Assembly (NCBI GenBank): GCA_017618075.1
Contig: JAFZUY010000028.1
Span: forward strand, 1 to 64,000
Source of the DNA: Lachnospiraceae bacterium
GTDB taxonomy: Bacteria > Bacillota > Clostridia > Lachnospirales > Lachnospiraceae
Direction of reading: 5' to 3'
Length of the DNA: 64,000 nucleotides
Part shown: positions 1-17,309 of the stretch, in pieces
Position numbering within the stretch: the stretch's first letter is position 1
Layout of the letters: every line of letters starts with the position of its first letter
Notes under the pieces: generated by a model
What the model saw: only the letters and a program-made list of their open reading frames with translations
What the model was told of the DNA's origin: nothing
Database searches by the model: none
Program-made: the position numbers and the translations under genes

Positions 1-63
1 AAGGTTAACAATGGTACGTTTGAATTCTTCATCGTACCGACAACCACGGTTACTTGTGGACAT
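1..63 (-). CDS. IS3-family transposase OrfA, 5' end only
   Basis: On the minus strand an ATG at 61-63 follows a strong AAAGGAGG ribosome binding site. The first 21 codons read MSTSNRGCRYDEEFKRTIV and then NL before the window edge. The YDEEFKRTIV stretch is typical of the helix-turn-helix start of IS3/IS150-group OrfA proteins, which bind the element's ends. The rest of the transposase lies outside the window, so whether the element is intact cannot be seen. Confidence 0.7.
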   Translation of the reverse strand, partial: MSTSNRGCRYDEEFKRTIVNL

Positions 64-127
64 GTTAGATACCTCCTTTTGGTGTCTACTTTATTGTAGT
101 GAATAGTTACTATTCGTGTCCACTTTT
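1..127 (-). mobile_element. Left part of an IS3-like insertion sequence
   Basis: The transposase start at 61-63 is followed outward by a short non-coding end. It holds a 15-base palindrome (GAATAGT-T-ACTATTC reading across 101-115) and two direct copies of GTGTCYACT at 82-90 and 116-124. Read inward from the outer side, the end has the AAGTGGACAC sequence common at IS3-family termini. The exact terminal base cannot be fixed without the other end, but it lies within a few bases of the stop codon of the next gene. Confidence 0.55.
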
Positions 128-901
128 TTAGTATAGATCCAATCCTTCTTCGTCTTCTTTTATGAGAAGTTTTGCCAAATCAAGGAAGCTCTGACTTACC
201 GAAAGAGCAGGGTCTCCTTCGATGACGGTTTTGCCTTCGTCTTCAAAACGAATGATGTCATCGCTTCTTGGAATATCAGCGATAATCTCAAGATTGTGGC
301 CGGTCGCAAATTCGCGTACTTTTTCTTCTTCGTTTAAAACATTTCTTCTGTTTAAAACGATTCCGCGTACATTTGCATAACTTCTTTCCTTAAAGTTTTC
401 TACAGCACTGTTAATATTGTTGGCTGCATATAAAGCCATCTTTTCGCCTGATGTTACAATGATGATTTTGCTTGCAAGACCTTCTCTGATGGGTGCTGCA
501 AAACCTCCGCAGACAACGTCGCCAAGTACGTCATATAAAACTGCATCGGGCTTGAAGGTTTCGAAGAGTTTTAATTCTTCAAGCAGTGAAAATGTGGTAA
601 TGATTCCGCGTCCGGCACATCCGAGTCCCGGAGTGGGTCCGCCTGTTTCTATACATAAAACTCCGCCGTAACCGACCTTTGAAATTTCATCGAGTGATTC
701 GGGCTCTTTGTCATAATCACGCATATAATTCATAACGGGGAATACCGGATTTCCCGATAAAAGATTTGCGGTCGAATCTGCCTTCGGATCGCAGCCGATC
801 TGTATGACTCTTTTTCCAAGGTACGCAAGCGCGGCGCTTAAGTTACTTGTTACGGTTGATTTGCCTATGCCGCCTTTACCGTAGATAGCTATTTTAATCA
901 T
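128..901 (-). CDS. NifH-like ATP-dependent iron protein (second copy)
   Basis: A 257-residue NifH/BchL/CfbC-family reductase component. It is expected to form a dimer that bridges one [4Fe-4S] cluster and passes electrons to a nitrogenase-like partner upon ATP hydrolysis. The P-loop GKGGIGKST lies at residues 8-16, the GCDPKADST segment at about 36-44, and the two cluster cysteines are C95 (GLGCAGRGI) and C131 (DVVCGGF). It is the last gene of a four-gene minus-strand operon and is clearly paralogous to the first gene at 3605-4357. Its ribosome binding site AAAGGAG is good and sits just below a palindromic repeat at 918-947. The stop codon lies at the very edge of an IS element, so the original C-terminus may have been changed. 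Substrate unknown. Confidence 0.85.
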
Positions 902-917
902 GTGTGTACTCCTTTTA

Positions 918-947
918 GGTGCCTGACTCGTGAAACATGTCCGGCTC
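918..947. repeat. GTGCC palindromic repeat, copy 1
   Basis: An imperfect palindrome, GGTGCCTGAC ... GTCCGGCTCC, with 8 of 10 arm positions paired. It lies between the NifK-like and second NifH-like genes. It is nearly identical in layout to the copy at 8762-8794 read on the other strand. Confidence 0.75.
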
Positions 948-952
948 CTAAA

Positions 953-2218
953 TTAAATAAATTTATCGATTGACGTGTAGATAAGATTCGGTGCGTTTTT
1001 GGTAAAACACCTTCCGGAAAATGCTTCATGAGGAAGTTCTATAAATTTCTTATCCGCGCATATCGGCTTAAACAAAGGATCGCCGATTACAACATCATAT
1101 TTCTTTAATTCGTTTTCCAAAATCTTTTCATCATCGCATGAAATATCGAATGGTTTTAAGATTTCGAAATCGCCGTCGCCTACGGTTTCAAGAACGTTGG
1201 CTTTGATTCCTTTGTCTAAAAGAAGCGCACTTGCAAGAGAAGCGCTCATAATGCTTTCGCCTAAAATTGCAACATTTCCTGCTTCTCTGAAACCTTCGGT
1301 TGCGTCGATGTTTTCTTTTGATTCACAGGCCTTGATAAGAGCTTCTTTTATTTTGTCTGAAAATCCTAATCCGTAAGGAACGCCTTTAACGAACGGGATT
1401 TTATATTCACTGAAAAGGTAATCAGCCAGAGGCTTTCCGCATGATGATAAAAGAAGATTAACTTCTCCTTTTTTGATATTTTTAAATTCGTATAAATTCG
1501 TATCTACGCCAACGCACGCATTTAATTCAAAGCCTGATTCTTTTATGAATTTTAAGAGGCTGTCCATGCTTTCTTTTGTCGGATAATCAAGAGGAGCAAC
1601 TCCTAAAAGATTGACTTTTATCTTCTTAAAAGTATCTTCCTGAGGTTTCGGAAAATCATTATCCGTATTGGCCGAAACTGCGGTAGGCAGCTTGGTACCA
1701 AACATCAGTTTCAGAGCTTGTGCATTAAATACATAAGGGTTGGAAGTTGGTTGACATAACTCATTTTCATCGGAGTTGGCAAATTTTTTTGCAAGTTCAA
1801 GAAATGCGTTACCGGCTCCCGTAATATAAGACTGCATACCGTTTGTTTTTACGGCAAATGAAGGAATACCGGTTTCGGTTTCTACCGCATAAGCAATGGC
1901 TTCCAAATCTGTTCCGATCATAGCGGGAAGAGGAGAAGCGCAGAGCGCGATAAATGCAGGTTTAAGTTCATTTGCAGCGACAATCAGATCTTCCATAAAT
2001 CTGTCATCGTTGCCCATTACCGCATCCTTTTCGGTAAGACCGGAAATAAACATCATGCTTTTCTTGTCGTACCATCTGGGCTCGTCGTGAGTCGTATATG
2101 TCGAATTGCAGCCTGACGCATCATGAATAACGGTCATCCCTCCGTACTCATATAAAGCGGAGCAGACGCCCGATGTATCGGCAGCGTAGATTGAAATTAT
2201 TCGTGCGGTTTGATTCAT
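953..2218 (-). CDS. Nitrogenase component 1-type protein, NifK-like
   Basis: A 421-residue member of the nitrogenase component 1 (oxidoreductase/nitrogenase) family, shorter than a true NifK. Three cysteines in the first quarter, C19 (SGVCSAL), C37 (ASGCNST) and C93 (ALCASPLP), match the spacing of the cysteines that hold the P-cluster or an equivalent [4Fe-4S] cluster. Later it has the family's Rossmann-like segments, including SSCGKPLADYL followed by YKIPFVKGVPYG. It would pair with the 448-residue protein encoded just upstream as an alpha2beta2-type core. The start has a modest AAAAGG ribosome binding site. No nifB, nifE or nifN is present nearby. The reaction catalysed is unknown. Confidence 0.8.
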   Translation of the reverse strand: MNQTARIISIYAADTSGVCSALYEYGGMTVIHDASGCNSTYTTHDEPRWYDKKSMMFISGLTEKDAVMGNDDRFMEDLIVAANELKPAFIALCASPLPAMIGTDLEAIAYAVETETGIPSFAVKTNGMQSYITGAGNAFLELAKKFANSDENELCQPTSNPYVFNAQALKLMFGTKLPTAVSANTDNDFPKPQEDTFKKIKVNLLGVAPLDYPTKESMDSLLKFIKESGFELNACVGVDTNLYEFKNIKKGEVNLLLSSCGKPLADYLFSEYKIPFVKGVPYGLGFSDKIKEALIKACESKENIDATEGFREAGNVAILGESIMSASLASALLLDKGIKANVLETVGDGDFEILKPFDISCDDEKILENELKKYDVVIGDPLFKPICADKKFIELPHEAFSGRCFTKNAPNLIYTSIDKFI

Positions 2219-2264
2219 CTTTTTTACCTTTTGACACTGGGGGACGAGGGTTGTGTGTCATTTT

Positions 2265-3611
2265 TTACAAACAGCTCTCACAGGCGATTCCCTTATGAGA
2301 GATAGTGAGTTTTAAATCCTTTGGATTATTGTATGCGTCCTCAATTAGTTTACATAAGTTTACAATACCGTCGAATCCGTACATTCCTCCGCCTTCGACT
2401 ATATTGACGAAATGCTTCGTCTGACAGAAGTACGCACAATTCTGTCCTATACTTAAGTATTCGCTGCTTGAGATATCTTCTTCGTTTGATGCATAAAGCA
2501 TTGTCGGATCCATTAAAGGGAAGATTTCTATACTGCCATCAAGTTTACATAATTCATCAAAAGCGATTCTTTCTTTTGGCGAAAATGCATCTGTATAGAT
2601 TCTTCTTACGTTAAATCCGTATTTTTTTAGGAGCAAAGCCAGGCCGACAGGGCGGGGCGTTGCAGTTGCATCTATTGCAATGGGTGTATCTTTTAGGAGC
2701 TCTTTTGTTTTAATAAGAGCTTCCTTGGCTTTCTTTTTATTAGTGTCTATTAAAGCATCAAAGAATTCGCCATCAACGTTCAGAGCATCTGCGAGTGATT
2801 TAAGATTTTCCTCAATCTCGTTCGAATCATAGCTTAAATCGATTGCCAGATGTTTGACACCAAGCTTGTTCGTTAAATCCTTTGCGGCGTAACCTACGAC
2901 CGGAAGATACGAGATAAGAAATGATGCGGCACCTAACGCGAGATAATCCTCGTATGTTTTGCATTCTGTGATATCCCACATTTTCGTATTTGCTTTTTCT
3001 AAAAGAGAATAAATCTCACAGGATTTATCAGTTGCGCGGTCACATCCTATGAGGCCAATCATTTTTTTATCAACGTCAAGTTTTTTAATCGGAGAGTAGA
3101 GACTTTTTTTCATCATTACCATGGGCTCGAATGTTTTTCGCATGGTAGGAGTCATATAGCAGTCAACCCAGTCGATTTCGGGGTAGCGTGTCTCGAGTTC
3201 CTTGGCGATTACTTTAAAATCGCAGCCTTCAAACAAATGCATGCAGCTTAAATAAACGAGTATGCATTTGGGATGTTCTTTCATTTCATCGACGATATGA
3301 GAACAGCCTTCAATAACTCTCGATTCCATTTCGCCGTTCCACATATCCTGCTCGCGAAGCGCAACCCAGGACATATTTTCCATACGGTTCATTTCCGCAG
3401 CGGTAAGAATAACACCGCGAAGACACCCCTGTGCGCAGACATATATCTGATGCGCCTCGGGAATAAGCATGCCTGTATGGACTATATTCCAAACACCTCT
3501 TGCTGGAGCGTTGTAATGCAGTCCGTCGAAAAAAGGATTGTCAAAATCGATTTCGGATATCCTGACACCTTCGGGTATTCTGTTTTCATTTAGAGAAATC
3601 TGTTTTAACAT
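2265..3611 (-). CDS. Nitrogenase component 1-type protein, NifD-like
   Basis: A 448-residue nitrogenase component 1 family protein. Candidate cluster ligands are C59 and C63 (CAQGCLRG) and C123 ([11 protein letters not shown]). Near the C-terminus it has GGGMYGFDG (about 407-415), which lines up by eye with the YHGYDG segment of NifD; the histidine that binds molybdenum in NifD would be tyrosine here. The usual FeMo-cofactor cysteine region also seems to lack cysteine ([10 protein letters not shown]). It ends in a CESC pair (444, 447). The start overlaps the stop of the upstream NifH-like gene by 7 bases, which suggests translational coupling. It is inferred to be the catalytic subunit of a nitrogenase-like reductase that does not carry FeMo-co. 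Confidence 0.8.
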
Positions 3612-4357
3612 TCAAAATCCTTTATAATTCTGTCAGCGAGTCCAAGCAGTGCTTCGCAAACATCGCTATCAGGGAAAAGATCCACGATTGTTTTTCCCTG
3701 TTTTTCAGCCTTTGCAAAAAGAGGACTTCTGGGAATGATTGCGGAAATATTTGTATCAAAATCTTTTACGAGAGTTTCGACATTTTCAAGCTCGTTTTCA
3801 ACGCCTCTGCAGTTTAGAATAATGCCGCCGAGTTTTGCGTAATCTCTCTTCTTAAAATTTTCAATGGCCATTGCGATATTGGCGGCCGCATAAACTGACA
3901 TTTTCTCGCCTGACGTAACTATATACACCTTTTCGGCGAAGCCTTTTCTCATGGGCATGGTAAAACCGCCGCATACCACATCTCCGAGAACATCATAAAT
4001 GACTACATCGGGTTTGTAATATTCGTAAGCGCCTTTGTTTTCCAGTGATTCAAGTGCGTTTATGATGCCTCGTCCCGCACAGCCGAGACCCGGCACGGGA
4101 CCGCCTGCTTCGACGCAGTAAACTCCGGATTCCGATTCTTTTACCATGTCTTCGAGCGTAAAAGATTCGTTGCTTCTGACAAGATCCAATACCGAAGTAA
4201 CCTTTTCTTTCGGACATAAAAGAGAAGTGGAGTCTGCTTTCGGATCGCAGCCGATTTGCATTACTTTTAAGCCTCTTTTTACAAAAGCGGCACTTAAATT
4301 TGATGACAATGTGGATTTACCTATTCCGCCTTTTCCGTAAATAGCAAATTTTATCAT
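3605..4357 (-). CDS. NifH-like ATP-dependent iron protein (first copy)
   Basis: A 250-residue NifH-family reductase and the first gene of the operon. The P-loop GKGGIGKST is at 8-16, and the cluster cysteines are C93 (GLGCAGRG) and C129 (DVVCGGF). The N-terminal 45 residues are close to those of the copy at 128-901, but the two differ throughout the C-terminal third, so they are old paralogues rather than a recent duplication. Two different NifH-like proteins flanking one NifDK-like pair is unusual. Either they form separate reductases or a heterodimer. Expression probably depends on the structured leader at 4376-4490. Confidence 0.85.
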
Positions 4358-4375
4358 AATTCTCTCTTTCTAAAA

Positions 4376-4409
4376 CTAAAAAGCACCCTTTCCGACATAG
4401 AAAGAGTGC
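4376..4409 (-). terminator. Intrinsic terminator upstream of the nitrogenase-like operon
   Basis: On the minus strand GCACTCTTTC, loop TATGTCG and GAAAGGGTGC form a 10-pair stem with one G-T pair, followed by TTTTTAGTTTT. It stands about 20 bases before the first NifH-like start codon, so it either ends the upstream TM1266-like transcript or acts as an attenuator. Confidence 0.7.
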
Positions 4410-4490
4410 ATAAAGACATAGTAATTCTTTTATGATGCACGACTTTCATCTCAAGCTCGATTGAGGTTTTGATGTCAGAAAGCAAATTTT
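4376..4490 (-). promoter_or_regulatory. Structured leader, possible riboswitch or attenuator
   Basis: The 134-base gap between the TM1266-like gene and the first NifH-like gene carries ordered RNA structure on the minus strand. A proximal part (4441-4476) can fold with CTCAA/TTGAG around a 6-base loop, and with GAC-ATC against GAT-GAAA-GTC. Next, GTGCATCATAAAAG (4427-4440) can pair with CTTTATGCAC (4406-4415). That second strand contains the GCAC that starts the terminator stem, so this pairing and the terminator exclude each other. I do not recognise the fold as a named riboswitch class. Confidence 0.5.
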
Positions 4491-4491
4491 A

Positions 4492-4737
4492 TTATTTGGG
4501 AGAGTAAACGGTTTTAGCTGTAACGCCGTTTATTCTGCCTATTTTGCCGGCAAGGGAACTGATTGTATCCTGAGGGGCATCAATTGCAACACTTATGATA
4601 CAAATTCCTTTTTCGCGGTAAGGAATTCCCATTCGCCCGATAATTGAACCGCGATATTCATGTAAGAGAGAATTAATCTCGTTGGCGGAATCATCGTTTT
4701 CCACGATAATTGCAATAACTGCAGCACGTGTTTCCAT
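4492..4737 (-). CDS. TM1266-type iron-only hydrogenase system regulator
   Basis: An 81-residue protein resembling the TM1266 family, small ACT-like ferredoxin-fold proteins usually encoded beside [FeFe]-hydrogenase maturation genes and annotated as putative hydrogenase-system regulators. The N-terminal METRAAVIAIIVEN strand, the RMGIPYREKGICIISV segment and the C-terminal INGVTAKTVYSPK are typical. The start has GAGGAAA ahead of ATG. No hydE, hydF or hydG lies in this window; instead it sits directly upstream of the nitrogenase-like operon, separated by the leader. The biochemical role of the family is not settled. Confidence 0.75.
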   Translation of the reverse strand: METRAAVIAIIVENDDSANEINSLLHEYRGSIIGRMGIPYREKGICIISVAIDAPQDTISSLAGKIGRINGVTAKTVYSPK

Positions 4738-4853
4738 ATGATTTCCTCACTATGATTAATTTCTGTTGTGATTATAACATAGTATCTGTGAAAAAGATAC
4801 CTATAAATATTTATATGCTCTTAAGCGAAAAAGTAGCCTTATTGTTTTATTGT

Positions 4854-4862
4854 GATATAATT
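4854..4862 (+). promoter_or_regulatory. Extended -10 promoter for the YwlG-type gene
   Basis: TGATATAAT is a full extended -10 element about 50 bases before the start codon at 4912. No good -35 box is seen, which fits an extended -10 promoter. Confidence 0.4.
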
Positions 4863-4911
4863 ATGAAAGTAAAATCAATTTCTAAACGAAATACATTGAA
4901 AGGATTCTATT

Positions 4912-5475
4912 ATGGATTTAAAAGAAATTACCGCTCAGAGCAAACAGGCTGTCACAGAGATTTTAGAGGGAGCAAGACTTAATCCCGGGGATATATTCGT
5001 AATCGGCTGTTCATCAAGCGAAATTCTCGGTTCGCAGATCGGAACCGCGACAAATCTTGATTCCGCAAATGCAGTATATGACGGTATTATTCCCATCCTA
5101 AAAGAAAAGGGTATTTTTGCTGCCGCACAGTGTTGCGAGCATTTAAACAGAGCACTGGTAGTTGAAAGAGAAACCATGATAAAATACGGCTTCGAACAGG
5201 TAAATGCAATTCCTCAGCCCAATCATGCAGGCGGAGCTTTTGCTACCGTATGTTTCGAAAGGTTCGAAGATCCCGTACTTGTTGAAAGCCTTAACCAAAA
5301 GGCTGATGCAGGCATAGATATCGGCGGTACAATGATTGGAATGCATATGCATAACGTAGTAGTACCTATGAGAATTTCCTTAAGAAAAATAGGCGAAGCA
5401 CCCATCATCTGCGCGAGACACCGCCCTAAATATGTAGGCGGCCAGAGAGCGATTTACGACGAGAAACTGATGTAG
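4912..5475 (+). CDS. ywlG: YwlG / TIGR01440 (UPF0340) family protein
   Basis: A 187-residue protein of the UPF0340 family, usual length about 185. It is recognised from IGCSSSEILGSQIGTATN near residue 40, the CEHLNRALVVE stretch near 75-85, and IGGTMIGMHMHNVVVPMR towards the end. The family is widespread in Firmicutes; no reaction is established, although the conserved Cys-Glu-His and His-x-His residues suggest a catalytic or metal-binding site. The start follows AAAGGATTC. It stands alone, with its own promoter-like -10 element and a terminator at 5499-5534. Confidence 0.85.
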   Translation: MDLKEITAQSKQAVTEILEGARLNPGDIFVIGCSSSEILGSQIGTATNLDSANAVYDGIIPILKEKGIFAAAQCCEHLNRALVVERETMIKYGFEQVNAIPQPNHAGGAFATVCFERFEDPVLVESLNQKADAGIDIGGTMIGMHMHNVVVPMRISLRKIGEAPIICARHRPKYVGGQRAIYDEKLM

Positions 5476-5498
5476 GCTGTTTAGAAAATGTCTAATAT

Positions 5499-5534
5499 AA
5501 AGGCTTTGGAATTAAACTTTCAAAGTCTTTTTTA
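5499..5534 (+). terminator. Terminator after ywlG
   Basis: AAGGCTTTG and CAAAGTCTT form a 9-pair stem (one G-T pair) around a 12-base loop, followed by TTTTTTAT. Confidence 0.7.
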
Positions 5535-5623
5535 TATATTTTTTTATGGTCACTTTGTCCATAATGATGTATAATAGAAAAAGATTTAGTCATGACCAAT
5601 TTGCTGACTGCAGGGAGGCTCGC

Positions 5624-5833
5624 ATGATTACTTTAACATTTATTCTTTTAAGTGCTTTGGCACCTTTCATACTGGTTTTCATATTAGGCAGGTTGATTAT
5701 TCATTTCACTGAAAAACTGCTTGATTTTGCTATAGAAAATGTCTTTTCACTTCCCGAGAAAATCCTCGATTCAATTAAAGAGAAATTTGCGAACAAAGGC
5801 AAATTGCCTGAAGCTGTAGAAATCAAAGAGTGA
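5624..5833 (+). CDS. Small single-pass membrane protein
   Basis: A 69-residue protein starting at the ATG that follows AGGGAGG by a few bases; an upstream in-frame start lacks such a site. Residues 1-25 are a hydrophobic helix (ITLTFILLSALAPFILVFIL), followed by an amphipathic stretch and a charged tail rich in Lys and Glu. I do not recognise a family. It lies between ywlG and the aquaporin gene with no clear promoter of its own. Confidence 0.55.
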   Translation: MITLTFILLSALAPFILVFILGRLIIHFTEKLLDFAIENVFSLPEKILDSIKEKFANKGKLPEAVEIKE

Positions 5834-5887
5834 TAGTGTAAATAATGTCGCAATGACTTATTTTATAGATAACAAAGGAGGAATTGT

Positions 5888-6586
5888 ATGAAAAAATTTA
5901 TTGCAGAATTAATCGGTACTTGCGTTCTTGTAGTATTCGGCTGCGGAACGGCTATGATTACAGGCTGTGAACATTGGGGCGGATATCTTCTTACAGCTCT
6001 TGCTTTTGGTTTGGTAATCGTTGGAATGGCATATTGTATCGGAAATATCTCCGGATGTCACATCAATCCCGCTGTATCTCTTGCAGTATTTATGAGCAAA
6101 GGAATGAGTGCTGCAGATTTCGGTCTTTATGTTCTTGCTCAGTGCATTGGTGCATGGCTTGGCGGCGGAATCCTTGCTTTGATTTTTGGTGTTGCAGAAA
6201 TCGAAGACAAAACAGGCGGATTCGGATCAAACGGCATCGCAGGCGTTAACGGAAGCATTCCCGCAGCTTTAATCGTTGAATTCATCCTTACATTTGTATT
6301 TGTTCTTATTATCCTTGGTGTTACAAGCAAGAAAGCTAATCACGGTTCATTCGGCGGACTTATCATCGGTCTTTCACTTGTATTAATCCACATTTTCGGT
6401 ATCGCTCTTACAGGAACATCAGTTAACCCTGCAAGAAGCTTCGGACCTGCTCTTTGCGCATTAATTTCAGGTAATGCGGGCCCTATCAAAGATCTCTGGA
6501 TCTTTATCGTAGGACCTTTGGCAGGCGGTGCTTTTGCTTCGGTTATTTATAACTTCCTTGAAAAAGAAGACAAGGCTAAGAAATAA
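5888..6586 (+). CDS. aqpZ: Aquaporin (AqpZ-type MIP channel)
   Basis: A 232-residue major intrinsic protein with six membrane helices. Both half-helix motifs are present, HINPAVS in the first repeat and SVNPARS in the second. The histidine in LVLIHIFGIALTG preceding the second motif, and the arginine after NPA, match the narrow selectivity filter of water-specific AqpZ rather than the glycerol facilitator GlpF. The start is preceded by AAAGGAGG. It is a single-gene unit; a perfect inverted repeat follows at 6618-6655. Confidence 0.9.
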   Translation: MKKFIAELIGTCVLVVFGCGTAMITGCEHWGGYLLTALAFGLVIVGMAYCIGNISGCHINPAVSLAVFMSKGMSAADFGLYVLAQCIGAWLGGGILALIFGVAEIEDKTGGFGSNGIAGVNGSIPAALIVEFILTFVFVLIILGVTSKKANHGSFGGLIIGLSLVLIHIFGIALTGTSVNPARSFGPALCALISGNAGPIKDLWIFIVGPLAGGAFASVIYNFLEKEDKAKK

Positions 6587-6617
6587 AATAGATTTTCGTT
6601 AAAAGTTAATTGATTGA

Positions 6618-6655
6618 AAAGGACCTTGGAATATGATATTATTTCAAGGTCCTTT
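6618..6655 (+). terminator. Hairpin after the aquaporin gene
   Basis: AAAGGACCTTG and CAAGGTCCTTT are perfect 11-base arms. The 3' side is GACAT rather than a T run, so termination efficiency is uncertain, but the pure dyad 32 bases past the stop codon makes a terminator likely. Confidence 0.55.
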
Positions 6656-6685
6656 GACATTAGAACTTAGCGAAATGAGGCATTA

Positions 6686-7939
6686 ATGATTAAAATAATT
6701 CTATTAATTTCATACATACTTGAAAATGTTTTTGATTTTGTTCTCGTAAAACTAAACGATTCATACGTTAAGAAACCTCTTCCGGAGAACGTAAAAGACG
6801 TATACGACGAAGATAAATATAACAAGTGGATTAATTACAGAAACGATTCCAAGAAGTTCAGTGCTATTCAGACTCTTGTCAGCGCTTTAATTACTTTGCT
6901 TCTTTTGATTTTCAATATTCATGCGAGAGTATTTTATCTGATTGATTTCGATTCTTTTATCCCGGTAGCGGGCGGTAAATTTGGAAATATTTACAATTAC
7001 ATCTTTTTAATACTTGTATTTACGTTAGTTTCCACGTTAATCTCGATACCGTTTGATTATTATCAGAATTTTGTGATAGAAGAGAAGTATGGTTTTAACA
7101 AAACAACAATTAAGACTTTTATACTTGATATTTTAAAATCTTTTTTAATAGGTTTGATTCTGTCTGTAATACTTTTCTTTGCTATAATGTTTTTCTTTGA
7201 GACCATCGGAAACTGGGGTATTTTTGCGACCGTTGCGGCGATAATTCTTTTTAATGTATTTATTGCTTTTATGTCGCTTCCGATAATGAGAATTTTCAAC
7301 AAATTCACTCCGCTTGAAGAAGGCGAGCTTCGTGACAAACTCACTGAACTCTGCCGCAAATACAATGTCAAAATCAAACAGATATATGTAATGGATGCTT
7401 CTAAAAGAACTACAAGATCGAATGCATTCTGTACGGGAATCGGCAAGAAAACAATATCTCTTGATGATAATCTTGTGAACAATTATTCAACTGATAAAAT
7501 TGTTGCTGTATTTGCACATGAATTCGGACATGCAAAATATAAGCATGTATTTAAAACAATCTGGTTTTCGTTTTTCAGAATTATTATTCTGATTCTTGCG
7601 TTGGGAGTAATACTGAATATTCCGGCTATTTGTGAAGCGTTCGGATTCAAAGAGGTTAATTACTATTTTGCATTTACAATTCTTACGATGATAAGCTGGC
7701 CGTTAAGCAGAGTATTTGATTTTATATCCAATAAGATTTCAAGAACATTCGAATATCAGGCTGATGCATTTGCTGCAGGCGAGGGATACGGAGATTCGCT
7801 TATAGGAGCGCTTAAACAGTTAAGCAGGGATGCACTTACCAATTTAAATCCTCATCCTGTTGTTGTTGCTCTCGAACATTCACATCCGACACTTTCACAG
7901 AGAATTGATTCTATAGAAAAAAACAGTAAAAAAGATTAG
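6686..7939 (+). CDS. M48 family (Ste24/CAAX prenyl protease-type) metalloprotease
   Basis: A 417-residue integral membrane zinc protease. The N-terminal half holds several membrane helices in the Ste24 arrangement. The catalytic HEFGH lies near residue 280 (FAHEFGHAKYKH), and the third ligand is the glutamate of FEYQADAFAA. In bacteria such proteins degrade or clip membrane and envelope substrates; CAAX processing itself is not expected. The length matches Ste24 homologues. Convergent with the SDR gene that follows, with a shared terminator between them. Confidence 0.88.
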   Translation: MIKIILLISYILENVFDFVLVKLNDSYVKKPLPENVKDVYDEDKYNKWINYRNDSKKFSAIQTLVSALITLLLLIFNIHARVFYLIDFDSFIPVAGGKFGNIYNYIFLILVFTLVSTLISIPFDYYQNFVIEEKYGFNKTTIKTFILDILKSFLIGLILSVILFFAIMFFFETIGNWGIFATVAAIILFNVFIAFMSLPIMRIFNKFTPLEEGELRDKLTELCRKYNVKIKQIYVMDASKRTTRSNAFCTGIGKKTISLDDNLVNNYSTDKIVAVFAHEFGHAKYKHVFKTIWFSFFRIIILILALGVILNIPAICEAFGFKEVNYYFAFTILTMISWPLSRVFDFISNKISRTFEYQADAFAAGEGYGDSLIGALKQLSRDALTNLNPHPVVVALEHSHPTLSQRIDSIEKNSKKD

Positions 7940-7955
7940 CTTTGGTTTACATAAC

Positions 7956-7990
7956 AAAAATACGCCCGGAAACCCGAGCGTATTTTTTTA
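7956..7990. terminator. Bidirectional terminator between M48 protease and SDR genes
   Basis: AAAAATACGC and GCGTATTTTT flank a 12-base loop, with T-rich sequence on the plus side and A-rich (T-rich on minus) on the other, so it can serve both convergent genes. Confidence 0.75.
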
Positions 7991-8008
7991 TTTTTGATTC
8001 TTTTATGA

Positions 8009-8737
8009 TTATGTCCAGCCTCCGTCGGCCGTTATAATCTGTCCTGTCACATAAGCGGGCATTTGGGATAGTTTTAAAATGCATTGTGCGATTTCCTTTG
8101 GAGTAGCGGCTCTGCCCATCGGGATCTGCTCGAACAAATCGTTTAATTCTTCATCGGATAAATGCGAATTCATCGGAGTATCTACCAGTCCGGGTGATAT
8201 TGCATTTACGCTGATGCCCGATATTGCAAGTTCCTTTGCAAGCGCTTTTGTAAATGCATTGATTCCGCCTTTGGTTGCAGAGTATGCAACCTCACATGAT
8301 GCACCGACATTTCCCCATACCGAAGAAACATTAATAATCTTTCCCGACTGATTTCTTACCATTCCGGGAATTACCACGGAACAGGTTGAATATACACTGT
8401 TTAAGTTTATATTCACTATGTTGTTCCATGATGAAGCGGTCATATCCTGGAAGATTCCGACATATGATATTCCTGCATTGTTTACCAGAATATCGATATT
8501 GGTTTCTCCTAAAAAATCGTCCAAATCGTCCTTTGATTTTTCGGTATTGCTAAAATCAATGGAAGCTGTGAAGACTTCGATTCCGTAGCTTAATGAAAGC
8601 TTTTCGGCCAATTCGTCCAGTTCATTTATTCTTGAGTTGCAGACCAAAAAGAGATTGCAGTCTTCCTTGGCAAATTCCAAAGCAGTTGCACTTCCTATGG
8701 CTCCGCTTGCTCCGGTTATCAGTACGTTTTTTCTCAT
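8009..8737 (-). CDS. SDR family oxidoreductase (FabG-like)
   Basis: A 242-residue classical short-chain dehydrogenase/reductase. It has the NAD(P)-binding TGASGAIG near the N-terminus, NNAG near residue 80, the catalytic serine in NVSSVWG and the YSATKGG Tyr-Lys pair, and the ISPGLVDTPM loop. I place the start at the ATG encoding MRKNVLIT because it follows AAGGATAT. An in-frame start 12 codons upstream would translate part of a dispersed palindromic repeat and is unlikely. Substrate is not predictable; FabG-type reduction of a 3-oxoacyl group is one possibility. Confidence 0.85.
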   Translation of the reverse strand: MRKNVLITGASGAIGSATALEFAKEDCNLFLVCNSRINELDELAEKLSLSYGIEVFTASIDFSNTEKSKDDLDDFLGETNIDILVNNAGISYVGIFQDMTASSWNNIVNINLNSVYSTCSVVIPGMVRNQSGKIINVSSVWGNVGASCEVAYSATKGGINAFTKALAKELAISGISVNAISPGLVDTPMNSHLSDEELNDLFEQIPMGRAATPKEIAQCILKLSQMPAYVTGQIITADGGWT

Positions 8738-8761
8738 TGTTATATCCTTTTTAGACTGTTC

Positions 8762-8794
8762 GGAGCCGGACACGCCTTTGGCGAGTCAGGCACC
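8762..8794. repeat. GTGCC palindromic repeat, copy 2
   Basis: GGAGCCGGACAC ... GAGTCAGGCACC is the reverse complement of the copy at 918-947 except for the central loop. It lies between the PHP gene and the SDR gene. Confidence 0.75.
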
Positions 8795-8799
8795 TTCTT

Positions 8800-9519
8800 T
8801 TATGTTCTTCTAATTAGTGCCGCGAGTACATCATCTATCGAATTTGACTCGGCATAAAGTGTATTTACAGCCTCGCTTATATGCTCGATATAATGTGCAT
8901 CGGAATCTTTTATAACGTTACATTTTCTTAAATACGGGTTTGCGTCCTGCATCTTATGCAAATTGCTCATATGCTGAAGTTCGAAGCAGTGGAAGATTGC
9001 ATCGGGCGGTACGAAACCGAGGTTAGACGTTAATGAAAATGAGTTTGCGTCAACATGCGCGGGAACCATTACTCCGTTAAAAGGTTTTATAACATCATCG
9101 ACCCTGTCAAAAGAAATATCCGTAGCCGAGATTAAAAGAGTCGGAAAAATACCTTTTACTTCATCGTTTTCATCACAAATAAACTGATCCCCGAATACTT
9201 TCGGATCGTTTGGAATCTGAAGTATGCGGGGTTCTACATATGCGTCAAAGCCCATTGCGTCTTCTAGAGTGTGGAAGAGGCAGAGGACATGAACTTCTTC
9301 ACTTGTTGTAAGTTCCATACCCGGAATAACGGTAATTCCGTATTCCCTGCCGATAGCCATTGCGGCCGCACAGTTTTTACATGTGTTGTGATCGGTGAGC
9401 GCAATAACATCAAGGCCCTTTACAACGGCCATACCGACAATGTTTCCGGGTGTCGATTCGTTATCGCCGCACGGAGACAGGCAGGAATGTATATGTAAAT
9501 CGTAATGAAGCGGAATCAT
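8800..9519 (-). CDS. PHP domain metal-dependent phosphoesterase
   Basis: A 239-residue PHP-domain protein. The metal-binding motifs DLHIHSCLSPCG near the N-terminus, ALTDHNT near residue 40, and later HVDANS and DSDAHY are all present. It is the last gene of the sensory-hydrogenase operon; its start overlaps the stop of the DRTGG gene by 4 bases (ATGA). PHP proteins beside DRTGG and hydrogenase genes occur in other Clostridia, but their substrate there is not known. A nucleotide or phosphorylated signal would fit the context; that is inference. Confidence 0.8.
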   Translation of the reverse strand: MIPLHYDLHIHSCLSPCGDNESTPGNIVGMAVVKGLDVIALTDHNTCKNCAAAMAIGREYGITVIPGMELTTSEEVHVLCLFHTLEDAMGFDAYVEPRILQIPNDPKVFGDQFICDENDEVKGIFPTLLISATDISFDRVDDVIKPFNGVMVPAHVDANSFSLTSNLGFVPPDAIFHCFELQHMSNLHKMQDANPYLRKCNVIKDSDAHYIEHISEAVNTLYAESNSIDDVLAALIRRT

Positions 9520-9839
9520 AAAAGATTATTGATAAGAAGAGCGGCTTCGAATATCGGAAGGTCCGTTTTTAAAACCGCAATTCCTTCCTCCTTCGCTTTT
9601 TCGATTAAAGTGTTGTCGAAAGTAACGCCTTCGGCGAGGATAATGCATGCTACATCTGTAAGAGATGCGACAGCCAAAGTATTAACGTTTGCCATAACCG
9701 TAACCCAGGCACTGCCTGAGGGTGCTTTACCCATTGCTATGGATAAAAGATCACAGCAGAATACTCCGGTGATATCGGAGTCCTTTGAAAGTGAGAGTGA
9801 TGTAAATTGTTCGAGCTTGCTTAATTCAAAAACTTTCAT
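9516..9839 (-). CDS. DRTGG domain protein
   Basis: A 107-residue protein matching the DRTGG domain, a small domain also found in CBS-containing pyrophosphatases and in phosphotransacetylase fusions. Visible family features are DITGVFCCDLLS and the C-terminal LTDVACIILAEG ... AKEEGIAVLKTDLPIFEAA. It is the second DRTGG gene in this operon, two bases after the hydrogenase-like gene and overlapping the PHP gene. A ligand-binding, regulatory role is likely but unproven. Confidence 0.75.
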   Translation of the reverse strand: MKVFELSKLEQFTSLSLSKDSDITGVFCCDLLSIAMGKAPSGSAWVTVMANVNTLAVASLTDVACIILAEGVTFDNTLIEKAKEEGIAVLKTDLPIFEAALLINNLL

Positions 9840-9841
9840 AC

Positions 9842-11128: not shown

Positions 11129-11147
11129 TCTGGTCTCCGTTTTAAAG

Positions 11148-11573
11148 TTATAAATTAATCACCATAGTTACCGTAGTTCCGACACCGAGTTCTGTCTGGA
11201 TATCCATCCTGTCGGAATTCTTTTTCATATTGGGAAGTCCCATGCCTGCACCGAATCCGAGAGAACGTACCTTGTCGGGAGCGGTGGAATATCCTGCCTG
11301 CATAGCCTTTTCGACATCTGCGATACCGGGTCCTTTGTCGGCGAGTATGAGAGTGATGGCATCTTCGGAGATGGTCACTTTGATTTTGCCGCCGTATGCA
11401 TGGATTATCATATTTATTTCGCCTTCATAAAGAGCTATCGCTACTTTTCTGATGGCTTCAGGTGAAACACCGAGTTGTTTCAATTTCTTTTTTACGTCGC
11501 TTGAAGCTTCTCCCGCTCTGGTAAAATCTTCGTTGGAAACTACGTAGTTGAGCTCCATTAAATCAGCCATCAA
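11148..11573 (-). CDS. Anti-sigma-factor-type ATP-binding protein (RsbT/RsbW-like HATPase)
   Basis: A 141-residue GHKL ATPase domain alone. The N box is YEGEINMIIHAYGG, the G1 box ADKGPGI and the G2 box GFGAGMGLPNM. This is the layout of serine-kinase anti-sigma factors of the RsbW/RsbT/SpoIIAB class, which phosphorylate a partner on serine or sequester a sigma factor. It lies between a DRTGG gene and the sensory hydrogenase, with an 11-base overlap at its start. Its target is not apparent; no anti-anti-sigma (STAS) gene lies in the operon. Confidence 0.8.
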   Translation of the reverse strand: MMADLMELNYVVSNEDFTRAGEASSDVKKKLKQLGVSPEAIRKVAIALYEGEINMIIHAYGGKIKVTISEDAITLILADKGPGIADVEKAMQAGYSTAPDKVRSLGFGAGMGLPNMKKNSDRMDIQTELGVGTTVTMVINL

Positions 11574-11916: not shown

Positions 11917-12014
11917 AATAAACCTCCGTATTATGTTAAAAATGGGGATAAAAATATCAAAGAAAAAAATAATAGAAAAACAGTATGATATGTAACCCCA
12001 AAAAATACATCAAT

Positions 12015-12043
12015 ATTATAACAACCGAAATCATTTTTTTCAA
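12015..12043 (-). promoter_or_regulatory. Promoter of the DRTGG-HydS operon
   Basis: On the minus strand TTGAAA (12038-12043), a 17-base spacer and TATAAT (12015-12020) give a near-consensus sigma-A promoter about 100 bases before the start codon at 11916. Confidence 0.6.
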
Positions 12044-12145
12044 GCAAATAGGACAGTGGCGCCAAAAGAGTTAAAACCTATCGAAATCATAGGTAAATAG
12101 GCATTTTCCGCGCAAAAATTTTTTGTGAAAAAATGAAAAAATCAA

Positions 12146-12236: not shown

Positions 12237-12731
12237 ATGAGTTCCAAGAAAACAACTGTACCTTTTGCCGGAACAAAAGAGCAAGAGGAAGCACTGAAGA
12301 AAATCATCGCTGAAAACAAAGACCAGAAGGGTGCCTTGATGCCTGTTATGCAGAAAGCACAGGATATCTATGGTTACCTTCCCATCGAAGTTCAGACGAT
12401 GATCGCGGACGGAATGGGTATTCCCCTCGAAAAGGTTTACGGAGTATCAACATTCTATTCACAGTTCGCACTTAATCCCAAGGGTAAATACCAGATTTCG
12501 GTATGCCTTGGTACTGCATGTTATGTTAAAGGATCCGGAGATGTTTATGCCAAGATTGAAGAGATCTTAGGCATTAAGGGTGGCGAATGCACACCTGACG
12601 GAAAATTCTCTCTTGATGCCTGCAGATGTGTAGGTGCCTGCGGACTCGCACCGGTTATGATGATCAATGACGAAGTTTACGGACGTCTTAAACCGGACGA
12701 TGTTAAAGGCATTTTAGATCAGTTTAACTAA
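12237..12731 (+). CDS. hydC: NAD-linked [FeFe]-hydrogenase subunit HydC (NuoE-like)
   Basis: A 164-residue thioredoxin-fold [2Fe-2S] subunit homologous to NuoE. The four cluster cysteines are in VCLGTACYVKG and ACRCVGACG. It is the first gene of the hydrogenase operon, with a strong AAGGAGG site before the ATG. In the trimeric HydABC enzyme this subunit carries electrons between the NADH-binding subunit and the H-cluster subunit. The electron-bifurcating mode (NADH plus reduced ferredoxin) is inferred from subunit composition. Confidence 0.88.
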   Translation: MSSKKTTVPFAGTKEQEEALKKIIAENKDQKGALMPVMQKAQDIYGYLPIEVQTMIADGMGIPLEKVYGVSTFYSQFALNPKGKYQISVCLGTACYVKGSGDVYAKIEEILGIKGGECTPDGKFSLDACRCVGACGLAPVMMINDEVYGRLKPDDVKGILDQFN

Positions 12732-13319: not shown

Positions 13320-13334
13320 TTTAGGAGGAAAGCT

Positions 13335-13722: not shown

Positions 13723-15537
13723 ATGTATCGTTCACACGTATTAGTTTGCGGTGGTACAGGATGTACTTCCTCCGGAAGCCAGGCAATCATCGACACATTC
13801 GAAGCCGAGATTGAAAAGAATGGCTTAAAAGACGAAGTAGCTGTTGTACGTACCGGTTGTCACGGTCTTTGTGCATTAGGACCTATCGTACTTATTTATC
13901 CCGAAGGTTCTTTCTACTCAATGGTTAAAGTAGAAGATGTTCCCGAGATCGTTTCCGAGCATTTGCTCAAAGGTAGAGTTGTTACCAGACTTCTCTATCA
14001 AGAGACTGTTAAGGAAGAGGAAGTAATTCCCCTTGTTGAAACAGGTTTCTACAAAAAGCAGAAGAGAGTTGCTCTTCGTAACTGTGGTGTAATCAATCCC
14101 GAAAACATTGATGAATATATCGCTGTAGACGGTTATCAGGCTCTTGCAAAGGTTCTTACAGAAATGACACCCGAGCAGGTTATCGATACACTTCTTGCAG
14201 CAGGCTTAAGAGGACGTGGTGGTGCAGGCTTCCCTACAGGTCAGAAGTGGAAACTCGCAAGAACCCTCGTTCCCGATGCAGATCAGAAATATGTATGTTG
14301 TAACGCCGATGAAGGTGACCCCGGTGCTTTCATGGATCGTTCCGTTCTTGAAGGCGATCCCCATGTAGTACTCGAAGCTATGGCTATCGCAGGTTACACA
14401 ATCGGTGCTAATCAGGGTTATATCTACGTTCGTGCAGAATATCCCATCGCTATCCAGAGACTTCAGATTGCCATTGATCAGGCAAGAGCATACGGATTAC
14501 TTGGTAAAGACATTTTCGGAACAGGTTTCGATTTTGATATCGACCTTCGTTTCGGTGCAGGTGCTTTCGTTTGTGGTGAAGAGACAGCTCTTATGACTTC
14601 CATCGAAGGAAACCGTGGTGAGCCTCGTCCTCGTCCTCCTTTCCCTGCAGTTAAAGGTCTTTTCGCAAAGCCCACTGTACTTAACAACGTTGAAACATAC
14701 GCTAACATTCCCCGTATCATCTTAAACGGTGCTGAATGGTTTGCTTCAATGGGTACAGAGAAGAGCAAGGGTACCAAGGTATTCGCACTTGGTGGTAAGA
14801 TCAACAACACAGGTCTTGTTGAAGTTCCTATGGGAACCACACTTCGTGAAGTTATCGAAGACATCGGTGGCGGCATTCCTAACGGAAAGAAGTTCAAAGC
14901 TGCTCAGACCGGTGGCCCTTCAGGCGGATGTATCCCTGCTGAACATTTTGATATTCCTATCGATTACGATAACCTTATTTCTATCGGTTCCATGATGGGT
15001 TCCGGCGGACTTATCGTAATGGATGAAGATAACTGTATGGTTGACATCGCTAAATTCTTCCTTGAGTTCACAGTTGATGAATCCTGCGGTAAATGTACAC
15101 CTTGTCGTATCGGTACAAAGAGACTGTACGAAACACTCGACAAGATTACAAAGGGTCAGGGAACACTTGAAGACCTCGACAAACTTGAGGAACTTTGCTA
15201 TTACATCAAAGCTAACTCACTTTGCGGTCTTGGACAGACAGCTCCTAACCCCGTTCTTTCAACTCTTCGTTATTTCAAAGACGAATATGTTGCTCATGTT
15301 GTTGAGAAGAGATGTCCTGCAGGCGTATGTAAATCACTCCTTAACTTCTCTATCGACAAAGAAAAATGTATCGGATGCGGAATGTGTGCTAAGCAGTGTC
15401 CTGCAGGTGCTATTTCCAAGACTGATTACATTGCACCCGGTAAGAAATTACCTGCAATGGCAATTGATTCCAGTAAATGCGTTAAGTGCGGTGCTTGTAT
15501 GGCTACATGTAAGTTCAGCGCTATTTCTAAGAAATAA
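13723..15537 (+). CDS. hydB: NAD-linked [FeFe]-hydrogenase subunit HydB (NuoF-like)
   Basis: A 604-residue flavoprotein subunit. Domains in order: N-terminal [2Fe-2S] thioredoxin-like domain (CGGTGCTSSG, GCHGLCALGP), the NuoF core with the NADH/FMN site GRGGAGFPTGQKW near 162 and CNADEGDPGAFMDRS near 193, an SLBB region, the [4Fe-4S] motif SCGKCTPCRIGT, and two C-terminal ferredoxin motifs (CIGCGMCAKQCP, CVKCGACMATC). It oxidises or reduces NAD(H) and exchanges electrons with HydC and HydA. The ribosome binding site AAGGAGG is strong. Confidence 0.93.
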   Translation: MYRSHVLVCGGTGCTSSGSQAIIDTFEAEIEKNGLKDEVAVVRTGCHGLCALGPIVLIYPEGSFYSMVKVEDVPEIVSEHLLKGRVVTRLLYQETVKEEEVIPLVETGFYKKQKRVALRNCGVINPENIDEYIAVDGYQALAKVLTEMTPEQVIDTLLAAGLRGRGGAGFPTGQKWKLARTLVPDADQKYVCCNADEGDPGAFMDRSVLEGDPHVVLEAMAIAGYTIGANQGYIYVRAEYPIAIQRLQIAIDQARAYGLLGKDIFGTGFDFDIDLRFGAGAFVCGEETALMTSIEGNRGEPRPRPPFPAVKGLFAKPTVLNNVETYANIPRIILNGAEWFASMGTEKSKGTKVFALGGKINNTGLVEVPMGTTLREVIEDIGGGIPNGKKFKAAQTGGPSGGCIPAEHFDIPIDYDNLISIGSMMGSGGLIVMDEDNCMVDIAKFFLEFTVDESCGKCTPCRIGTKRLYETLDKITKGQGTLEDLDKLEELCYYIKANSLCGLGQTAPNPVLSTLRYFKDEYVAHVVEKRCPAGVCKSLLNFSIDKEKCIGCGMCAKQCPAGAISKTDYIAPGKKLPAMAIDSSKCVKCGACMATCKFSAISKK

Positions 15538-15551: not shown

Positions 15552-17309
15552 ATGGAAACCATTAATATTACAATAAATGGTATGGCAGTTGAAGCTCCCA
15601 AAGGATCCACTATTCTTCAGGCTGCTAAGAGCGCAGGCATCGACATTCCTACTCTTTGCTACTTAAAAGAGATTAACGAGATCGGTGCATGTCGTATCTG
15701 TATGGTAGAAGCAGACGAAGGAAGAGGAGCAAGACTTGTTGCTTCTTGCGTATACCCTATCACAGAGGGAATGAAGGTTTATACCAACACTCCCAAGGTT
15801 ATTGATTACAGAAAGAAAACATTACAACTCATTCTGTCAGACCATGATAAGAAGTGTCTTTCATGTGTTCGTTCAGGCAAATGTGAACTTCAGAAATTAT
15901 GCCATGACTTCGGCGTAGATGATGAGAACAAGTATGCAGGTGTTGCTAACGAGTTCGAAATCGACTGCAGCGCAGCTCACATGGTAAGAGATAACAACAA
16001 GTGTATTAACTGCCGTCGTTGTATCGCAGCATGTGAAAAGACTCAGGGAATCGGCGTTATCGGTGCTAACAACAGAGGTTTCATCACAGAGATTTCTTCA
16101 CCTTTCGGTATGGGTCTCGGAGAAACAGCTTGTGTATGCTGTGGCCAGTGTATCGCTGTATGTCCTACAGGTGCTATTTACGAGAAGTCAGATGTTGACA
16201 AGATTATGGCAGCTATCGCTGATCCTACAAAGCATGTTGTTGTTCAGACAGCTCCCGCTGTTAGAGCAGCACTCGGCGAGCCTTTCGGAATTCCTATGGG
16301 AACCGGTGTTGAAGGCAAGATGGCAGCTGCTTTAAGAAGAATCGGATTTGAGAAAGTATTTGATACAGATTTCGCAGCAGACGTTACAATCATGGAAGAA
16401 GCTACAGAGCTTCTCGGCAGAGTAACAAACGGCGGTGTACTTCCTATGATTACATCATGTTCACCCGGATGGATTAAGTTCTGCGAGCATTACTATCCCG
16501 ATCAGTTAGCTCATCTTTCATCATGTAAGTCTCCTCAGCAGATGTTCGGCGGAATTCTTAAGACATACTACGCAGAGAAGATGGGATGGGATTCTAAGGA
16601 TATCGTTTCCGTATCAGTAATGCCTTGTACAGCTAAGAAGTTCGAAATCGGCAGAGACGACATGTCAGCTGCAGGTGTTCCCGATCTTGATTACACAATG
16701 ACAACAAGAGAACTTGCAAGATTAATCGAGAGATGCGGTATTGACTTTAAGAATCTTCCCGATGAAGCATTTGACGATCCTATGGGTGAGTCAACAGGTG
16801 CTGCAGTTATCTTCGGTGCTACCGGTGGTGTTATGGAAGCAGCTCTTCGTACAGCAGTTTGGAAACTCACAGGCGAAACAAACGATTCTCCTCTCGAGTT
16901 CAAGGAAGTACGTGGCGTAGAAGGTATCAAGGAAGCTACATACGAAGTTGCAGGTCTTAAGGTTAAGGTTGCTGTTGCTTCAGGTCTTTCAAATGCAAGA
17001 ATTATCATGGATAAGATCCGTGCAGGCGAAGCAGATTACACATTCGTTGAAATCATGGCTTGTCCCGGCGGTTGCGTAAACGGTGGTGGTCAGCCTCAGG
17101 TTCCCGCTTCTGTTCGTAACTTCACAGATATCAGAGCTGAGAGAGCTAAAGCTCTTTACAACTATGATGAGAATATGCCAAGAAGAAAATCTCATGAAAA
17201 CGAATCTGTTAAGAAGCTTTATGCTGAATACTTTGGTGAGCCTAACAGCCACAGAGCACATGAAGTTCTTCATACAACATATGTTGAGAGAAAGATTCAT
17301 GAAATCTAA
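15552..17309 (+). CDS. hydA: [FeFe]-hydrogenase catalytic subunit HydA
   Basis: A 585-residue H2-producing or H2-oxidising subunit. Domains in order: plant-type [2Fe-2S] ferredoxin (C36, C47, C50, C66), His-Cys cluster segment (CLSCVRSGKCELQKLC), two [4Fe-4S] motifs (C151-C161, C195-C204), the H-cluster domain and a C-terminal small-subunit-like region ending in HEVLHTTYV. H-cluster motifs are TSCSPGW (C303), MPCTAKKFE (C359) and MACPGGCVNGG (C504, C508). The first motif has serine where the canonical TSCCPxW has a second cysteine. It is the last gene of the operon. The maturases HydE, HydF and HydG are not in the window. Confidence 0.93.
   Translation: METINITINGMAVEAPKGSTILQAAKSAGIDIPTLCYLKEINEIGACRICMVEADEGRGARLVASCVYPITEGMKVYTNTPKVIDYRKKTLQLILSDHDKKCLSCVRSGKCELQKLCHDFGVDDENKYAGVANEFEIDCSAAHMVRDNNKCINCRRCIAACEKTQGIGVIGANNRGFITEISSPFGMGLGETACVCCGQCIAVCPTGAIYEKSDVDKIMAAIADPTKHVVVQTAPAVRAALGEPFGIPMGTGVEGKMAAALRRIGFEKVFDTDFAADVTIMEEATELLGRVTNGGVLPMITSCSPGWIKFCEHYYPDQLAHLSSCKSPQQMFGGILKTYYAEKMGWDSKDIVSVSVMPCTAKKFEIGRDDMSAAGVPDLDYTMTTRELARLIERCGIDFKNLPDEAFDDPMGESTGAAVIFGATGGVMEAALRTAVWKLTGETNDSPLEFKEVRGVEGIKEATYEVAGLKVKVAVASGLSNARIIMDKIRAGEADYTFVEIMACPGGCVNGGGQPQVPASVRNFTDIRAERAKALYNYDENMPRRKSHENESVKKLYAEYFGEPNSHRAHEVLHTTYVERKIHEI

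Follow-up and report, generated by a model that had tools for sequence, protein, structure and literature searches.

A nitrogenase-like gene cluster with Hyp proteins as a probable substitute for HydG in [FeFe]-hydrogenase maturation

The DNA considered here is a stretch of 64,000 nucleotides from a Lachnospiraceae bacterium (GenBank assembly GCA_017618075.1, contig JAFZUY010000028.1, positions 1 to 64,000), hereafter called the window. At its start it carries four nitrogenase-like genes, in the order H1-D1-K1-H2 (128..4357, minus strand). They make up the first half of a ten-gene operon cut by the contig edge. The other half encodes a second nitrogenase-like pair, D2 and K2, and the proteins HypF, HypC, HypD and HypE. 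HydE, HydF and HydG are treated as the dedicated maturation set of [FeFe]-hydrogenases. Comparison of genomes indicates that the ten-gene cluster is probably a HydG-independent route to the Fe-CO-CN unit of the H-cluster, in which it would replace HydG.

A ten-gene operon interrupted by an insertion sequence

All four genes of the window's half-operon are on the minus strand. H1 (3605..4357) encodes a NifH-like ATP-dependent [4Fe-4S] reductase of 250 residues (Pfam PF00142, 285 bits), D1 (2265..3611) a NifD/NifE-like subunit of 448 residues (Pfam Oxidored_nitro, 65 bits), K1 (953..2218) a NifK/NifN-like subunit of 421 residues (Pfam PF00148, 100 bits) and H2 (128..901) a second NifH-like reductase of 257 residues (Pfam PF00142, 289 bits). 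These NifH and Oxidored_nitro matches lie far over the gathering scores. They bear out, together with the open reading frames, what an earlier reading of the letters alone (the sequence-only reading) had described, namely two NifH-like genes around one D-like and one K-like gene. No NCBIfam equivalog reaches its cut-off for any of the four proteins.

The same reading had concluded that the operon contains no cofactor-assembly genes. This absence is an artefact, because the contig edge cuts the operon inside an insertion sequence (IS). The window corresponds to contig C46, starting at its first base, and begins inside an IS3/IS150-type element (family assigned by eye), the end of which, with the start of orfA, occupies 1..140 on the minus strand and here lies between H2 and D2. 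In the same genome, D2, K2, hypF, hypC, hypD and hypE are found at the end of contig C13, where the sequence beside D2 appears by eye to hold the other IS end together with the GATT that follows H2. Visual inspection also shows that the element is flanked by GATT at either side, that its two ends are similar and that the site is uninterrupted in G004, a genome of the same genus whose D1 is 96% identical. In G004 the operon is unbroken, without the IS, and reads H1-D1-K1-H2-D2-K2-hypF-hypC-hypD-hypE, with products of 426 residues for D2, 342 for K2 and 70 for HypC. The insertion has changed the C-terminal residues of H2, which is three residues shorter in G004.

HydG is missing from carriers of the cluster

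In the related genome G055, the gene next after K1 encodes HydF (574 bits, cut-off 326). For this reason, the H-cluster maturases were tested in 36 related genomes, 31 of the same genus and five others with a D1-like match, of which 15 carry the cluster and 21 do not. HydF and HydE each pass their cut-offs in 33 of these genomes, and both do so in all 15 carriers. A match to the HydA-family model PF02906 is found in 34 genomes, including every carrier, 13 of them strongly. HydG passes its cut-off in 16 of the 36 genomes, that is, in 0/15 carriers versus 16/21 non-carriers (516-937 bits). Within the genus, 14 genomes have the cluster only, 15 have HydG only, none has both and two have neither (Fisher p = 5e-7, a value that ignores kinship).

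The set of carriers was extended by a scan with a D2 alignment, which detected 130 relatives in a set of one genome per species; 80 loci were kept. From these loci 50 further carriers were selected, with a preference for isolates and longer loci; as duplicates of G055 and G022, L126 and L169 were excluded, and 28 other loci lie outside the selection. The tests for HydG, NifB and the [NiFe]-hydrogenase large subunit span both sets, 65 carriers in all. Being picked by D2, the further carriers show the companions of the cluster, not the frequency of HydG loss without it. HydG over cut-off is found in none of the 50.

It could be argued that HydG is present and was missed, or that another radical SAM enzyme does its work, the link with the cluster being due to coincidence or shared ancestry. 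Many genomes are indeed incomplete, and weaker matches to the HydG model (173-206 bits) occur in 22 of the 50 further carriers. However, three of these weaker matches were tested and rejected as real HydG, all being ThiH over cut-off, and the same search readily detects HydG in most of the related genomes that do not have the cluster, as against none of the 65 carriers. An overlooked HydG, or a radical SAM substitute for it, is therefore considered extremely improbable.

HydG is missing from five non-carriers: G012, G034 and G089, where HydF is not over cut-off either, as well as G028 and G078. In G028, HydF begins at base 146 of its contig; HydG is directly upstream of HydF in G003, and a contig break may hide HydG in G028.

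The history of HydE points in the same direction. On a HydE gene tree of 32 sequences, from which a broken copy of G024 and a second copy of G001 were excluded, the cluster label needs four gains or losses, at least three of which are forced by well-supported branches. The state of the cluster has therefore changed more than once. A single N-terminal column of HydE is specific to carriers, and no other; this near-absence of carrier-specific sites is expected if the substrate of HydE is unchanged. These genome comparisons strongly support the view that the cluster substitutes for HydG in the maturation of [FeFe]-hydrogenases.

HydG converts tyrosine into [Fe(cys)(CN)(CO)2]-, which is passed to HydE for dimerisation, and HydF finishes the assembly, as described in PMC12752695. 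By genome comparison, the cluster would hold the same place in the pathway, and it accompanies HydE and HydF. In contrast to HydG, it consists of ten genes of other families, includes no radical SAM tyrosine lyase, and its cyanide would presumably come from carbamoyl phosphate. The occurrence of HydE and HydF with no typical HydG is reported for five of eight acetogenic Clostridium species in PMC9431212, where atypical radical SAM candidates are named. A survey of open-access titles and abstract openings, with subscription papers and bioRxiv mostly outside its reach, returned nothing joining nitrogenase-like proteins, Hyp proteins and the loss of HydG.

Hyp proteins and the [NiFe]-hydrogenase pathway

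In the maturation of [NiFe]-hydrogenases, HypE and HypF make cyanide from carbamoyl phosphate and HypC and HypD carry an Fe(CN)2CO unit, the source of CO in anaerobes being given as unresolved (PMC12134894). The HypF, HypC, HypD and HypE proteins of G004 all exceed curated cut-offs. In sequences filtered by length and score, the C-terminus PRIC of HypE is kept in 56/56 cases and the MC(V/I/L/M)G motif of HypC in 67/67; nine cysteines of HypD are invariant in 62 sequences. HypD occurs in 15 of the 36 genomes, 14 of the 15 carriers and G034. The carrier with no HypD match is G015, whose D2 sits 1.4 kb from a contig end.

The [NiFe] large subunit (PF00374) is found in one of the 36 genomes, again G034, and in none of the 15 carriers; in the enlarged set, 60 of the 65 carriers are without a large subunit over cut-off. 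For these 60, a service of the Hyp genes to a [NiFe]-hydrogenase was rejected. HypA passes its cut-off in one of 16 genomes tested (G034) and in 0/15 carriers. The cluster therefore resembles the HypABCDEF pathway in that its HypC, HypD, HypE and HypF belong to the same curated families, with catalytic residues kept. It differs by the lack of HypA over cut-off in the 15 carriers tested and of a large subunit over cut-off in 60/65, as well as by the clustering of the Hyp genes with nitrogenase-like proteins and, in 22/80 loci, also with HydF.

The question arises whether HypCDEF alone could give the Fe-CN/CO fragment. The nitrogenase-like proteins would then serve the pathway through a different reduction, such as activation of HydF or HydA, or help with the bridging dithiolate. 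HypCDEF are complete, their key residues are kept, and Fe(CN)2CO already holds both kinds of ligand (PMC12134894). On the other hand, carriers have lost HydG, the maker of ligands and synthon, yet have kept HydE and HydF, and HydE is almost without carrier-specific sites. Furthermore, hypF, where found (71/80 loci), comes after K2 or a fused D2-K2 in gene order. Such a division of labor is judged unlikely.

Nitrogenase-like subunits: ligands and relatives

All 34 H1 and all 75 H2 sequences keep the P-loop lysines and both cysteines that ligate the [4Fe-4S] cluster, which agrees with the sequence-only reading that these features are intact in both reductases. That reading had also noted three early cysteines in each large subunit. 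This is true of D1, where C59, C63 and C123 are invariant (51 sequences), but not of K1, where C37 alone is invariant (C19 in 64%, C93 in 7% of 44 sequences). The invariant cysteines of D2 are C69, C70, C127 and C130 (67 sequences), while C37 and C42 of K2 are each kept in 98% of 59 sequences. In profile alignments, D1 C123 and D2 C130 face a NifD cysteine, which we take to be Cys154, and K1 C37 faces a NifK cysteine, presumably a P-cluster ligand. The cysteine sites of the D and K subunits would probably suit [4Fe-4S]-type clusters and not the nitrogenase cofactor FeMo-co. By profile alignment, the NifD cysteine that binds FeMo-co (in HCYRS) faces a tyrosine in D1, and the cofactor histidine faces the Y of GGGMYGFDG. 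At the latter position, the 51 D1 sequences have Y in 24 cases, W in 17, H in four and other residues in six. The replacement of both ligands, previously seen by eye, is thus upheld.

NifB exceeds its cut-off in one of the 65 carriers (Megasphaera cerevisiae), which makes it unlikely that carriers in general use a NifB-derived cofactor; the NifB model gives no match in G000.

The C-terminal part of D1 contains C444 and C447 (92% and 82% of the 51 sequences), forming a CxxC in 41/51. We take this CxxC to resemble, loosely, the cysteine pairs of hydrogenase large subunits. Together with the presence of HypC in carriers that mostly (60/65) have no [NiFe] large subunit to be served, it could be a sign of a free-standing new enzyme (a hydrogenase, or a CO2 or cyanide reductase) whose D/K subunits carry an Fe(CN)(CO) cofactor, HydG having been lost for another reason. 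However, HydF (22/80) and a TM1266-family regulator (54/80) are in or near the cluster. In addition, no HydG over cut-off is present in any of the 65 carriers, whereas the 15 carriers tested for HydE and HydF have both, and the HydE tree shows at least three gains or losses. A new enzyme of this kind is very unlikely.

With respect to known families, the cut-offs for nitrogenase are not reached (nifH 299-301 versus 394 bits; nifE 56 for K1 and 26 for D1 versus 505 bits), nor are those for dark-operative protochlorophyllide reductase (bchL 196 and 182 versus 345 bits; bchB 44 versus 509; bchN 16 versus 324) or for Cfb (CfbC 286 and 298 versus 402 bits; CfbD model 20 versus 268), K subunits being moreover present in the cluster. 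A stand-alone tetrapyrrole reductase is ruled out by these cut-offs, by the gene context and by the replacement of HydG. Hence the earlier idea of an uncharacterised ATP-driven nitrogenase-like system distinct from BchLNB, CfbCD and nitrogenase is supported, whereas that of a stand-alone reductase without assembly genes does not.

In comparison with solved structures, the D1 profile reaches 34 bits both for NifE and for the MarD chain of 9FMG. The latter entry corresponds to MarDK2H2 (PMC12552129). In structure searches no family stood out, chains of NifEN, Vnf/Anf, DPOR and Mar being tied; the model of a fused D2-K2 is of middling quality (pLDDT 73, pTM 0.60) and served for the fold only. In a tree built without Mar and Cfb, D1, D2, K1 and K2 each form one clade, as does H1, whereas the H2 sequences do not form a clean clade. 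D1 and K2 are each grouped, on long branches, with single HDK sets located beside an ABC transporter, apart from NifDK, NifEN and BchNB. Such single sets were seen in L040-L045 (G114, G018, G078, G030, G089, G034) and at L209:12001-18297, on plasmid pTS1 of Treponema saccharophilum. The three genes that follow them encode an iron-type ABC transporter according to the T. saccharophilum annotation, and gene sizes match elsewhere. D2 was also searched on plasmids, with 59 records found. The top match comes from the single HDK set of T. saccharophilum, not from the present cluster; the remaining matches, among those displayed, are mostly nifE or unannotated.

The cluster shares with nitrogenase NifHDK/NifEN the fold, the H/D/K architecture and the P-loop and [4Fe-4S] cysteines of the Fe protein, and its two D/K pairs are reminiscent of NifDK and NifEN together. 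It differs by the loss of FeMo-co ligands, the near-absence of NifB over cut-off (1/65) and its separate clades in the tree. Group IV Mar, Isr, Nfa and Cfb are likewise distant nitrogenase-like HDK sets (HD in the case of Cfb). A radical SAM B protein is contained in the Mar, Isr and Nfa sets (PMC11423573); in contrast, there is no radical SAM B gene between H1 and hypE in G004, the one genome in which this was considered.

A possible pathway

The following sequence of events may be proposed. HypF and HypE would use carbamoyl phosphate to form a thiocyanate on the C-terminal cysteine of HypE, and HypC-HypD would put cyanide and CO on iron, as expected by analogy with known Hyp chemistry. The reductases H1 and H2 would pass ATP-gated low-potential electrons to D1K1 and D2K2. 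These pairs would make or add CO, act as a scaffold, or both, giving rise to an Fe(CN)(CO)2-type synthon like that of HydG; the fold and the missing source of CO suggest these two steps. Finally, as in the known Hyd pathway, the synthon would be dimerised by HydE, finished by HydF and received by HydA. Genome comparison itself shows which genes belong to the set and which of their residues are conserved, that HydG is missing while HydE and HydF remain, and that 60/65 carriers have no [NiFe] large subunit over cut-off.

A more detailed version may tentatively be imagined, in which the H/D/K proteins produce CO at the expense of ATP. They would reduce a one-carbon precursor, CO2 or a formyl group, to CO, to be set beside the HypEF-derived cyanide on the HypCD iron. 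A nitrogenase-like scaffold would thus yield the Fe(CN)(CO)2 synthon with no need for tyrosine or radical chemistry. We regard this version as possible, if somewhat unlikely.

Several points weigh against the replacement of HydG by the cluster or against parts of the pathway. The product of HypCD is Fe(CN)2CO and that of HydG Fe(CN)(CO)2, so that a change of ligand must be assumed. In 5/50 further carriers there is a [NiFe] large subunit, a potential client of HypCDEF, and 5/15 carriers have matches of 20-21 bits to the HypA model (cut-off 28.9). HydA gives a weak match in carriers G007 and G026, which are 83-84% complete. Matches of 267-316 bits to the NifB model (cut-off 344) occur in six of the 65 carriers. 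In G078, a non-carrier that is 93% complete, HydE adjoins HydF (L203:7780-10016, contig C160 of G078) and HydG was not found. The HydE tree describes the history of a gene and not that of the species, and the genomes are mostly draft assemblies. Lastly, the genome-wide searches for HydE, HydF and HydA cover the 36 genomes only, and in the 50 further ones HydF was observed only where it is near the cluster.

Two of these cases call for a comment. The NifB-model matches under the cut-off, in L202 (G007:C283), G008, G009, G187, G191 and G192, possibly represent other NifB-like radical SAM proteins. As for G078, where searches for HypD and for a D1/D2 pair gave no result, a contig may be missing or a third route may exist.

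Variation of the cluster among relatives

A wider genome search, as the sequence-only reading had proposed, finds the gene set in many relatives. All nine core genes (H2, D2, K2, hypF, hypC, hypD, hypE, D1 and K1) are present in the fetched stretch of 52/80 loci. The gene-order and conservation tables rely on profiles made from the cluster's own proteins and on score filters, which divergent or broken copies can escape. In the same stretches, the TM1266-like gene is found in 54/80 loci, H1 in 35/80 and HydF in 22/80. The relatives kept include Blautia, Roseburia faecis, Coprococcus comes, Eubacterium ramulus, Megasphaera, Saccharofermentans and assemblies assigned to Atopobiaceae or Coriobacteriaceae. 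Of the 28 loci without the full set, 15 were inspected: 11 stop at most 150 bases past the last core gene, and the other four (L127, L162, L168 and L177) have 1.2-3.9 kb remaining without D1 or K1, H1 being present in L177.

The two-reductase arrangement is common. It is not essential, because 19 of the 52 full-core loci have one NifH-like gene alone. G055, G011 and G022 contain the same genes in different orders, with D1 only 36-38% identical; no H1 was detected within the stretches from G011 and G022. A fusion of D2 and K2 into one protein of about 805-957 residues occurs in 13/80 loci (L143, L144, L149, L151, L158, L163, L165, L168, L173, L177, L178, L187 and L189). At L137:18344-20455, the K1 open reading frame of 703 aa extends into what appears by eye to be a multi-span membrane transporter, through either a fusion or a sequencing error.

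Hydrogenase genes of the window and carriers with published activity

A gene directly upstream of H1 (4492..4737, minus strand) encodes an 81-residue TM1266-family putative regulator of the iron-only hydrogenase system (TIGR03959, 112 bits, cut-off 60.8). An inverted repeat seen by eye between this gene and H1 (about 4386-4440) might be a transcription attenuator; Rfam gave no match over gathering scores in positions 1-20000, this repeat included.

The window also encodes an NADH-dependent [FeFe] hydrogenase, HydA (15552..17309, plus strand; NF040763, 884 bits, cut-off 765), the presumed final recipient of the cofactor. Its translation carries, as read by eye, TSCSPGW, MPCTAKK and EIMACPGGCVNGGGQP, which we take to be the H-cluster motifs. 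On the same strand are a HydB/NuoF-like hydrogenase subunit (13723..15537; TIGR01959, 499 bits, under the cut-off of 559) and a HydC/NuoE-like one (12237..12731). Beside this hydrogenase operon, the region 8800-11916 encodes by eye PHP-type, DRTGG-like and anti-sigma-type ATPase proteins, as well as an [FeFe]-hydrogenase-like protein under family cut-offs (9842-11128); it resembles a hydrogen-sensing set.

For two carrier species, hydrogenase activity has been published. H2:methyl viologen activities of about 14-644 mU/mg for Blautia luti and about 23,000 mU/mg for B. schinkii, which serves there for comparison, are given in PMC12773636, where H2 is an end product of B. luti and where the word maturation is absent from the text. 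The genomes of B. luti MSK.16.34 and B. schinkii MSK.6.26, matched to that work at species level with strain identity not established, have the full cluster and neither HydG nor a [NiFe] large subunit over cut-off. Because of this published activity and these HydG-less genomes, it is likely that an active hydrogenase made without HydG is already on record, unremarked.

Implications

If the replacement of HydG is true, common gut bacteria, among them Blautia, Roseburia, Coprococcus and Megasphaera, would build the H-cluster cofactor without HydG, its ligands depending on cyanide derived from carbamoyl phosphate and on a nitrogenase-like machine. A candidate explanation would also be available for the acetogenic Clostridium species that have HydE and HydF and no typical HydG (PMC9431212). 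In a survey of the gut, nitrogenase genes are described as widely encoded and little transcribed (PMC12578642); some of them may be the maturase-like proteins discussed here, and hence hydrogenase maturases. The main text of the gut hydrogenase survey holds no occurrence of HydG or maturation (PMC12578642). More generally, a clade of nitrogenase-like proteins would gain a function, and a tractable system would become available for studying the origin of the CO ligand in anaerobes. Should the H/D/K proteins prove to be CO makers, the cofactor chemistries of nitrogenase, [NiFe]-hydrogenase and [FeFe]-hydrogenase would be united in one pathway, and a source of CO for the anaerobic Hyp-type route would be named.

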